Positions 14,976 through 53,656 of a stretch of 64,000 nt of DNA are shown piece by piece. The DNA is from an uncultured Paracoccaceae bacterium. GTDB lineage: Bacteria; Pseudomonadota; Alphaproteobacteria; Rhodobacterales; Rhodobacteraceae. The notes beneath the pieces were generated by a model. That model did not search any database, was not told the origin of the DNA, and worked only from the letters and a program-made list of their open reading frames with translations. A program made the translations under genes and the position numbers. The stretch spans positions 1 to 64,000 of the forward strand of contig CANMEQ010000006.1 of assembly GCA_947497065.1 (NCBI GenBank), in the 5' to 3' direction. Position 1 is the stretch's first letter; every line of letters starts with the position of its first letter.

Positions 14976-15362
14976 CGCGGAGGATCGGATGGCCGCGGGC
15001 AGGGCAACCTGTTCGAGGAAAGTCCGGACTCCATCAAGGCACGGTACCGGGTAACGCTCGGGCAGGGTAACCTGACGGATAGCGCCACAGAGAACAGACC
15101 GCCATTTCTTGAAATGGTAAGGGTGAAACGGTGGAGTAAGAGACCACCGCGGCGGTGGCAACATCGCTGGCATGGCAAGCCCTACCGGGAGCAATGCCAA
15201 ATAGGGGCCGCGTGTGAGGGCAACCTCGCAGGATCGTCTTGATCCGAGCAGGTCCGGGTTGGCAGCTAGAGGGCGGCAGGTAACTGTCGCTTGAGATGAA
15301 TGGTCATCGAATTGTGGGGTACGCCCCACAAGGAACAAAATCCGGCTTATAGATCCTCCGCG
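14976..15362 (+). ncRNA. rnpB: RNase P RNA (type A)
   Basis: This 387-base RNA is the catalytic subunit of RNase P, which trims tRNA 5' ends. The first and last 11 bases (CGCGGAGGATC / GATCCTCCGCG) pair as helix P1. The conserved 5' block with GAGGAAAGTCCGGACTCC (15014 onwards), the ACAGA motif near 15090 and the TCCGGCTTAT block before the 3' end are all present. It lies in the gap between the amidase and the aldo/keto reductase. Confidence 0.96.
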
Positions 15363-15390
15363 TTTTTCTGGGCGAAGGCCCAGAAAAACG
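15361..15390 (+). terminator. 13-bp perfect hairpin at the 3' end of rnpB
   Basis: CGTTTTTCTGGGC and its exact complement enclose a four-base loop (GAAG). The stem contains T5 on the left arm and A5 on the right arm, so it can act as a terminator for minus-strand transcripts and as a processing or end structure for rnpB on the plus strand. Part of the hairpin recurs 85 bases later. Confidence 0.7.
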
Positions 15391-51572: not shown

Positions 51573-52051
51573 CCCAGACCAATTCAAACCAATCCGGCAA
51601 TCAACGCCGCAAAATGAAATCTGCATCCCGTTTGTATGCGGTGCAGGCGCTGTTCCAGATGGAGCACAGCGGCCAGACGTTTGACGGCGTTGCGGCGGAG
51701 TTTCTGAACTACCGGTTCGGGGAGACCTACGACGGTGTTGAGATGATGGATGGCGACATCACGCATTTCAAAATGCTGGTGGAAAAGGCGGTTTCTAACC
51801 AAGCCAAGATTGACCAAATGACCGACCGTGCTTTGGTTGCGCGTTGGCCGTTGGGGCGGATTGATCCGACGTTGCGGGCGTTGTTCCGTGCGGCAGGCGT
51901 TGAGTTGATTGGCCGTGATACGCCGCCACGTGTGGCGATTTCGGAATATGTGGACGTGGCCAAGGCGTTTTTCGATGACGGTGATGAGCCGAAATTCGTG
52001 AATGCAGTACTTGATCACATGGCGCGCGAAGCGAAACCCGAAGCGTTTTAA
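51569..52051 (+). CDS. nusB: Transcription antitermination factor NusB
   Basis: This 160-aa all-helical RNA-binding protein helps RNA polymerase read through rRNA operons. The pattern SASRLYAVQALFQMEHSG at the start and the VNAVLDHMARE near the end match the family. Linkage of ribH and nusB is widespread in bacteria. Its ATG overlaps the ribH stop (ATGA). Confidence 0.95.
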   Translation: MTQTNSNQSGNQRRKMKSASRLYAVQALFQMEHSGQTFDGVAAEFLNYRFGETYDGVEMMDGDITHFKMLVEKAVSNQAKIDQMTDRALVARWPLGRIDPTLRALFRAAGVELIGRDTPPRVAISEYVDVAKAFFDDGDEPKFVNAVLDHMAREAKPEAF

Positions 52052-52111
52052 GGGCGGTCGCCTCTGGACTCTGGCGTGGCGGTGGCTACGTTAAGGTTAG
52101 GAGGATGGACC

Positions 52112-52438
52112 ATGTCATCACATAATAAATCAGAATTCCTGCGTCTTTGTATGACGAGCGGAGTGATCGGTTTCGTGGTGGCGTTTTTGTTCAACGTGGT
52201 TCTGGTTGGTTTTAACGTGCTGGGCAGTGCGGAGTTGTTGACCACCTTTGGCGGTGCGGCGGCTTTGTTTGTTGTGTGGATGTTGAACGGTCTGGCGTTT
52301 TCGGTTTTGCAGTTCGTGATCGCGGTGTCTGGCCGGGATGACGATGATGATGACCATGATGGCGGGCATTTCGCCCGTGAGTATCTGGCCGAACCTGTTC
52401 TGATACCAATTGAAAAAGACCAACGCCGCCGTCGGTAA
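52112..52438 (+). CDS. Unidentified small membrane protein
   Basis: This 108-aa protein has two hydrophobic helices (about 15-37 and 43-70) followed by an acidic run (DDDDDDHD near 78-85) and a basic end. A strong AGGAGG site lies seven bases before ATG 52112, so an upstream GTG is not needed. It lies 60 bases after nusB but may be separate. If the structured RNA next to it (52.47-52.63 kb) is the 6S RNA, this gene would be in the place of the salt-stress membrane protein gene reported beside 6S RNA in Rhodobacter; I cannot confirm that. Confidence 0.7.
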   Translation: MSSHNKSEFLRLCMTSGVIGFVVAFLFNVVLVGFNVLGSAELLTTFGGAAALFVVWMLNGLAFSVLQFVIAVSGRDDDDDDHDGGHFAREYLAEPVLIPIEKDQRRRR

Positions 52439-52468
52439 GTCATTCTTCGGGCTGATTTGATGAAAAGT

Positions 52469-52631
52469 GGCGGGCCCCGCAGCGACCGTAGGGGTCTGAA
52501 TTCCCGAGGACCTGTATGTACAGGTGGTAGCCAGGTAACGTAACCAGAGCTACGACAGCGCCAGCCACCTCGGATTTGCTTAAGGCCACTGGAATGTTAC
52601 CCCGTGTATACGAGAAGAGCAGAAGCCCGCC
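52469..52631 (-). ncRNA. Candidate structured RNA (6S-RNA-like rod)
   Basis: No gene fits the 424 bases between 52439 and 52862. Positions 52469-52475 (GGCGGGC) pair exactly with 52625-52631, closing a 163-base segment. Inside, GGGGT (52491-52495) pairs with 52599-52603, ATTCC (52500-52504) with 52591-52595, and CGAGG (52505-52509) with 52568-52572, giving a rod with large internal loops and an apical branched part. The minus strand is favoured: closing stem then ACTTTT at the 3' end, and a TTGCAC-17-TACCTC promoter just before the 5' end. Rod shape and length suit 6S RNA; the conserved 6S sequence was not verified. Confidence 0.5.
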
Positions 52632-52638
52632 GTGACTT

Positions 52639-52667
52639 GAGGTAGTGCGCAGGGGGGCGTTGTGCAA
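52639..52667 (-). promoter_or_regulatory. Possible promoter of the structured RNA
   Basis: On the minus strand TTGCAC (52667-52662) is followed by a 17-base spacer and TACCTC (52644-52639). Seven bases later transcription would begin at the first G of the closing stem (52631). The -10 element is weak. Confidence 0.4.
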
Positions 52668-52862
52668 GGGCGCAGTGCACAGGTTGCGGGGAAATCGCGC
52701 GGCGTTGCAGATCTCGTTCGTGAGACAAGAGGGACTACACACGTCACGCGGTGGGTGCCGGGTGTCGAATGTGACCGAGCTGAAGTCCGGAAATTCAGAC
52801 TTGATTTGAAGGCCGGTGTCGGTAACGGTTCTGTTACTACCAATTTAACAAAGGATATTTCT

Positions 52863-53060
52863 ATGAATACGAAGGTTTTGGGTCTCGCGGCCAGTGCAAT
52901 TCTTGCAGCATCTGTCGCGCATGCGGACACGGCAACAACATCCCCGTCTGCGCCATGGTTTGGTGAGGCAACAGGTTTGCAAGGGGCAGCTGGTCCTTTG
53001 GTGCTGGGTCTTGGTGCGATTATTGCCATCGGTGCGATCGCGTCCGGTAGCGATACCTAA
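52863..53060 (+). CDS. Unidentified 65-aa small secreted or membrane protein
   Basis: This short gene begins MNTKVLGLAASAILAAS, a signal peptide ending in AHA (about residue 21), then a short Ser/Thr/Pro stretch, and a Gly/Ala/Ile-rich hydrophobic helix (about 43-60) before a polar end. An AAAGGA site precedes the ATG. The open frame upstream of it shows no protein-like pattern and crosses the structured-RNA region, so ATG 52863 is the start. A good terminator follows. I do not recognise the family. Confidence 0.7.
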   Translation: MNTKVLGLAASAILAASVAHADTATTSPSAPWFGEATGLQGAAGPLVLGLGAIIAIGAIASGSDT

Positions 53061-53092
53061 GCAAGATATCTTTTCGGTTTACGAAGAGTGGG

Positions 53093-53125
53093 AACGGGGC
53101 TGTTGTTGAAACGGCCCCGTTTTTT
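53093..53125 (+). terminator. Terminator of the 65-aa protein gene
   Basis: AACGGGGC pairs perfectly with GCCCCGTT across a 13-base loop, followed by T residues to 53125. It lies 33 bases after the stop codon. Confidence 0.8.
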
Positions 53126-53160
53126 GTTGCGTGCACGGGCGGCGACACGTGTTGACGAAT

Positions 53161-53175
53161 GTTCACGTATTGTTC
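53161..53175 (+). promoter_or_regulatory. LexA (SOS) box of mmcB
   Basis: GTTC-N7-GTTC (53161-53164 and 53172-53175) is a perfect match to the alphaproteobacterial LexA operator. It ends ten bases before the mmcB ATG. A TTGACG at 53152-53157 is a likely -35 element, so the box would sit within the promoter. Confidence 0.88.
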
Positions 53176-53185
53176 ATGTTTGGGT

Positions 53186-53656
53186 ATGGACAGTCAGACG
53201 ACAGACTTTGAACAGACGTTGCAGCCGGGCCAATTGCTGGCGCGCGGCGTGTGCCGCCATTTGCGCAGCTTGGATTTTGTATGTGTGGAAGAGTTGGTGC
53301 CGACGCGCGGGTTGCGGGTGGATGTGATGGCGCTCGGGCCGAAGGGCGAGATCTGGGTTGTGGAGTGCAAATCCAGCCGCGCTGATTTTCAATCGGACCA
53401 TAAGTGGCAGGGCTATTTGGACTGGTGTGACCGGTTTTTCTGGGCGGTGGATGGAGATTTCCCGACCGAACTGTTGCCAGATGAAACCGGGCTGATTTTG
53501 GCCGATGCCTATGATGCGGAAATTGTGCGCATGGGGCCGGAGGCCAAGTTGGCGGCTGCGCGGCGTAAGGTGATGGTGCAGAAATTCGCGCGTACGGCGG
53601 CGATACGGTTGCAGGCGCTGCGCGATCCGACTTCGGGGTTGGGCCGGTCAGGTTAG
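53186..53656 (+). CDS. mmcB: DNA repair protein MmcB
   Basis: This 156-aa protein of the MmcB (formerly DUF1052) family is linked to mitomycin C resistance in Caulobacter as an SOS gene. It has a PD-(D/E)XK-nuclease-like core: D46 in RVDVMAL and E60-C-K62 in WVVECKSS, followed by the conserved FQSDHKWQGYLDWCDRF. A perfect LexA box lies just upstream. I see no ribosome site before ATG 53186, and the -35/-10 spacing would place the transcript start at about the ATG, so the mRNA may be leaderless. Confidence 0.9.
   Translation: MDSQTTDFEQTLQPGQLLARGVCRHLRSLDFVCVEELVPTRGLRVDVMALGPKGEIWVVECKSSRADFQSDHKWQGYLDWCDRFFWAVDGDFPTELLPDETGLILADAYDAEIVRMGPEAKLAAARRKVMVQKFARTAAIRLQALRDPTSGLGRSG

Follow-up and report, generated by a model that had tools for sequence, protein, structure and literature searches.

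A minus-strand 6S RNA gene scoring below the Rfam cut-off in a probable Octadecabacter genome keeps its rod by covariation

Using covariance-model searches, covariation analysis and gene-order comparison, we find that an intergenic stretch (52439-52862) of the window, the 64,000-nucleotide piece of Rhodobacteraceae DNA analysed here, is almost certainly occupied by ssrS, the gene for 6S RNA, which lies on the minus strand between about 52633 and about 52465. Found widely in bacteria, 6S RNA binds RNA polymerase and modulates transcription; by mimicking an open promoter it captures the housekeeping polymerase, from which it is freed by the synthesis of a product RNA. The RNA described here is an ordinary member of this already known family. 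A minus-strand 6S RNA had been suggested in the first-pass annotation of this DNA, and that reading is borne out, weakly by Rfam itself and further by a model built without the window, by covariation and by gene order; within 52439-52862 no other Rfam family fits better on the plus strand. The same annotation had called this the only long gene-free stretch, which was loose, as the window also holds a class A RNase P RNA gene (14977-15365, 389 bases, plus strand, 300.8 bits), a second non-protein stretch. Besides ssrS, 52439-52862 takes in the upstream element of the 6S gene and the leader that precedes a small open frame at 52863-53060. Table 1 collects the features of the locus.

Table 1. Features at the 6S RNA locus, in window coordinates.
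Feature	Position	Strand	Basis
6S RNA gene (ssrS)	52467..52632	-	extent of the match to a covariance model built without the window
Closing stem, 5' arm of the RNA	52625..52631	-	sequence, fold; inner part is consensus helix 1
Closing stem, 3' arm of the RNA	52469..52475	-	sequence, fold; inner part is consensus helix 1
Central region, 5' strand; putative product-RNA template (AAGGCCACUGGAAU start)	52582..52595	-	invariant columns, constraint folds
Terminal stem-loop	52526..52569	-	alignment rows, consensus structure
Hairpin, 3' strand of the central region	52510..52525	-	fold; consensus helix 6, 100% of cells paired
-35-like element TTGCAC	52662..52667	-	TTG there in 26/31 loci; column conservation
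-10-like element CTACCT	52640..52645	-	16 bases from TTGCAC; column conservation
Terminator-like hairpin, then CTTTTTC	52419..52436	-	within the final bases of the convergent gene; no commoner than by chance
Convergent gene, 108-aa protein, candidate sspA counterpart	52112..52438	+	two hydrophobic stretches by eye; position

The Rfam model of 6S RNA (RF00013) aligns to the minus strand of the window over model positions 1-187 with 28 bits, against a cut-off of 46.4 bits that is the curators' reporting threshold and no biological trait. Across the 3.2-Mb genome this is the sole 6S match at E up to 10 (E 0.0011), and in a permissive Rfam scan of 52000-53200 it ranked first of eight matches and was full length on the minus strand; the other seven, at E 0.6 or worse, were set aside as chance. 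A nadA riboswitch candidate at 52931-52954, outside the stretch, reached 14.4 of 37.5 bits (E 5.9) and was rejected, and so was a tmRNA identity, since a search for tmRNA found none. At the curated Rfam cut-offs nothing in 52439-52862 reaches the score, the whole window yielding RNase P RNA and one tRNA only. In a control search, RF00013 produced matches even in an archaeon when E values up to 10 were allowed, and the weak score in the window therefore needed a second test. Of 61 genomes (its own and 60 relatives), 48 were matched by RF00013 at E up to 1, 19 of them above the cut-off; within the family, five of 37 genomes exceed it, and these five align together with the window. A model built without the window, from 19 loci above the Rfam cut-off (five from the same family and 14 from the same class), shows homology to 6S RNA at 104.6 bits, as one match in the window and the single match in the whole 3.2-Mb genome (E 9.1e-18). 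As for a second 6S gene in the same genome, the only candidate was a 66-base match to the family model described below, which at E 0.33 was taken as chance.

The minus strand folds as a rod (-67.5 kcal/mol), as had been proposed, and the two arms of its seven-base-pair closing stem (GGCGGGC and GCCCGCC on the plus strand) are exact reverse complements. Compared with 200 dinucleotide shuffles, of which one was equally stable, the fold has a z score of -2.5; taken alone, the single-sequence fold is only moderately unusual, and the related sequences decide. From an alignment of 31 rows, 29 of them distinct, RNAalifold derives a consensus of 40 pairs in six helices; the first-pass annotation had named three helices besides the closing stem, without coordinates. 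The paired changes that it had suggested looking for in related species are there: both sides are altered in 15 of the 40 pairs, with at least one such pair in each helix, and double-change cells number 97 as against 30.8 in shuffles. Over the 31 rows, 97.7% of cells are paired, compared with 36.7-53.5% when the partners are slid, a contrast that is helped by the derivation of the consensus from the very rows tested, which favours its own structure over slid versions too. None of 500 shuffles, which ignore kinship, reaches any of the five measures. For conserved structure we rely chiefly on the double changes in every helix, and by covariation the 6S rod is kept, with its closing stem, open central region and terminal stem.

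One of these changes has taxonomic value. The outer triplet of the terminal stem reads GGU/ACC in nine of the 31 rows (the window and eight others, all of one genus) and GGG/CCC in the remaining 22, which is a compensatory change that marks part of the genus. A 25-base stretch containing the 5' side of the GGU/ACC change occurs exactly in nine named records, eight titled Octadecabacter and one uncultured Rhodobacteraceae, in a search that may pass over the window's own genome, and because Octadecabacter titles predominate, this is probably the genus of the window. The literature searched on 6S in related bacteria, in listings and by co-occurrence of terms, holds nothing on an Octadecabacter 6S RNA.

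How widely is the gene shared? A family model of 31 rows, with the window's row among them, finds 6S in all 19 genomes of the genus that were searched, among them five where the quicker run with Rfam's model came back empty. With looser filters RF00013 also matches in all 19, at 25.7-46.3 bits, none above its cut-off, which leaves a gap in annotation: a pipeline relying on the cut-off only would be expected to miss the 6S gene in each of them. At E 0.01 the family model matched 188 of 198 family genomes, themselves a sample from a larger group, and a better family model would return a global regulator to many genome annotations. The other ten gave no match at E 0.01, and looser searches of them with two models yielded none below E 0.2 (best E 0.22). 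Several of the ten are fragmented or incomplete, and some are reported to be 97-100% complete; because of the latter, some family members may possibly have lost 6S or hold a strongly divergent one. The genomes reported as 97-100% complete and giving no convincing 6S match with two models are G032, G101, G111 and G156.

Two cases of apparent duplication were also seen. Genome G026, whose assembly is 82% complete, carries on contigs C266 and C260 two 6S-like genes, L065 and L066, which are about 74% identical over 120 bases within otherwise dissimilar flanks and represent either two paralogues or mixed strains. In genome G197, a second copy was discarded: two contig ends overlap identically over 141 bases and were read as a single gene split by the assembly.

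What does the low Rfam score in the window mean? It would be accounted for if the locus held a degenerate 6S remnant that no longer works, but the 19 genomes of the genus are alike in their RF00013 scores, pairing has been preserved through compensatory changes, and the family model, in which the window's row is included, scores the locus at 170 bits; we therefore consider decay very improbable. More likely, the score is low because Rfam's model is ill suited to this lineage.

Upstream of the gene, the alignment columns at and near CCTTG and CTA are conspicuous for their information content across the 31 family loci, and a TTG lies 36-39 bases ahead of the match start in 26 of them and is absent there in five. 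A strict sigma-70 scan of 52000-53200 found no promoter, but the promoter-like element of the first-pass annotation belongs to this recurring TTG/CTA element; transcription of 6S probably starts near 52633. At the 3' end, the reported T-run amounts to four T two bases past the closing stem, and inspection by eye shows no conservation of it among the aligned relatives. A terminator scan found one candidate at the locus versus 1.9 expected, and candidates within 150 bases of 6S occur in six of 31 loci versus about 2.5 in mononucleotide shuffles, which is not convincing, and an intrinsic terminator for 6S was not adopted.

The surroundings of ssrS recur as well. The stop of the convergent gene lies 31 bases from the end of the 6S match, and its 108-aa product matches nothing in Pfam or NCBIfam at E up to 0.1. 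A relative of this gene adjoins 6S in 16 of 31 loci, within 105 bases in 15 of those, and none was detected beside 6S in the other 15. When two of the relatives were scanned against Pfam, one had no match and the other three below-cut-off matches, the best being LPG_synthase_TM (E 0.00027). Further out, mmcB is found upstream of 6S in 21 of 31 loci and nusB convergently downstream in 20, with ribH and ribBA beyond it where the flank reaches; in the window, NusB, RibH and RibBA are each matched in both Pfam and NCBIfam, and MmcB in Pfam alone. Wherever they were found, these four genes and the small membrane gene all lie on the strand opposite to 6S. Of the three neighbours nusB, mmcB and the small membrane gene, one or more are present at 25 of 31 loci and none at six, these gene-order counts being lower bounds from flanks of 0.7-4 kb. 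Gene order is kept in most, not all, loci.

On the other side of 6S, a 65-aa open frame (52863-53060, plus strand) begins, by eye, with a signal-like segment and ends in a hydrophobic one rich in glycine; neither Pfam nor NCBIfam matches it. At locus L042, 24 aa of it are matched across the 6S gene, between 6S and nusB. After this frame, at about 53093-53126 (plus strand), a hairpin followed by a T-run (ACGGGGC...GCCCCGTTTTTT) was noted by eye and is a probable terminator of the frame, which the terminator scan missed, perhaps because of its long loop.

The closeness of the convergent gene (a 31-base interval in the window, and within 105 bases in 15 of the 16 loci that have such a gene) could suggest that the structure serves as 3'-end or antisense control of that membrane-protein gene, or as a bidirectional intergenic terminator, but this is barely credible, as the RNA persists at the 15 of 31 loci where no relative of the gene was detected nearby, has a recurring upstream element of its own and matches 6S models over its full length.

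How would the 6S RNA act? With its closing stem, open central region and terminal stem, the rod would resemble an open promoter and, by analogy with known 6S RNAs, is expected to be expressed and to bind the housekeeping RNA polymerase holoenzyme, which it would retain during late growth or stress, with an effect on the stress response. The polymerase would then use the central region's 5' strand as template for a short product RNA, whereby 6S would be released. A GGCC in this strand is invariant in all 31 aligned rows, and the predicted start of the product RNA, AAGGCCACUGGAAU, is placed from the Rfam alignment and by analogy with E. coli 6S. In folds with the template blocked over 8 bases, the upper part of the structure is altered and the lower rod unaffected, and with 12 or more bases blocked, part of the lower rod opens too; these folds serve as illustration, since blocking the bases by itself opens a helix.

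Could the neighbouring gene be part of this regulation? In Rhodobacter sphaeroides, sspA is convergent to the 6S RNA gene. Deletion of 6S in this species is stated in a review to cause salt sensitivity and raised expression of the downstream sspA (PMC13414033), and a growth defect is also reported (PMC8998176). Conceivably, in part of the Rhodobacteraceae ssrS and the two-helix membrane gene that converges on it act together as a small regulatory unit, in which read-through or collision of transcripts ties the level of 6S to how much of a salt-stress membrane protein is made; the raised sspA in the deletion strain would follow from such coupling, which we nevertheless rate as unlikely. Many loci are now available for asking why a small membrane gene often ends beside 6S.

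In conclusion, the window's RNA shares with alphaproteobacterial 6S/SsrS (RF00013), such as that of R. sphaeroides, its length, its rod with an open central region, the hairpin on the 3' strand, the GGCC ahead of the putative product-RNA start and its occurrence as a single match in the genome. It departs from the RF00013 standard in scoring under the Rfam cut-off, and the GGU/ACC terminal stem sets the window and eight other rows of its genus apart from the rows with GGG/CCC. The likeness to R. sphaeroides 6S is drawn from published descriptions (PMC13414033, PMC8998176). SspA of that species, a putative salt-stress membrane protein encoded beside 6S, has its possible counterpart in the convergent two-helix gene of the window, a likeness of position and of two hydrophobic stretches seen by eye in a protein without a Pfam or NCBIfam match, and it is an attractive parallel that this 108-aa gene may occupy the place that sspA holds in R. 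sphaeroides.
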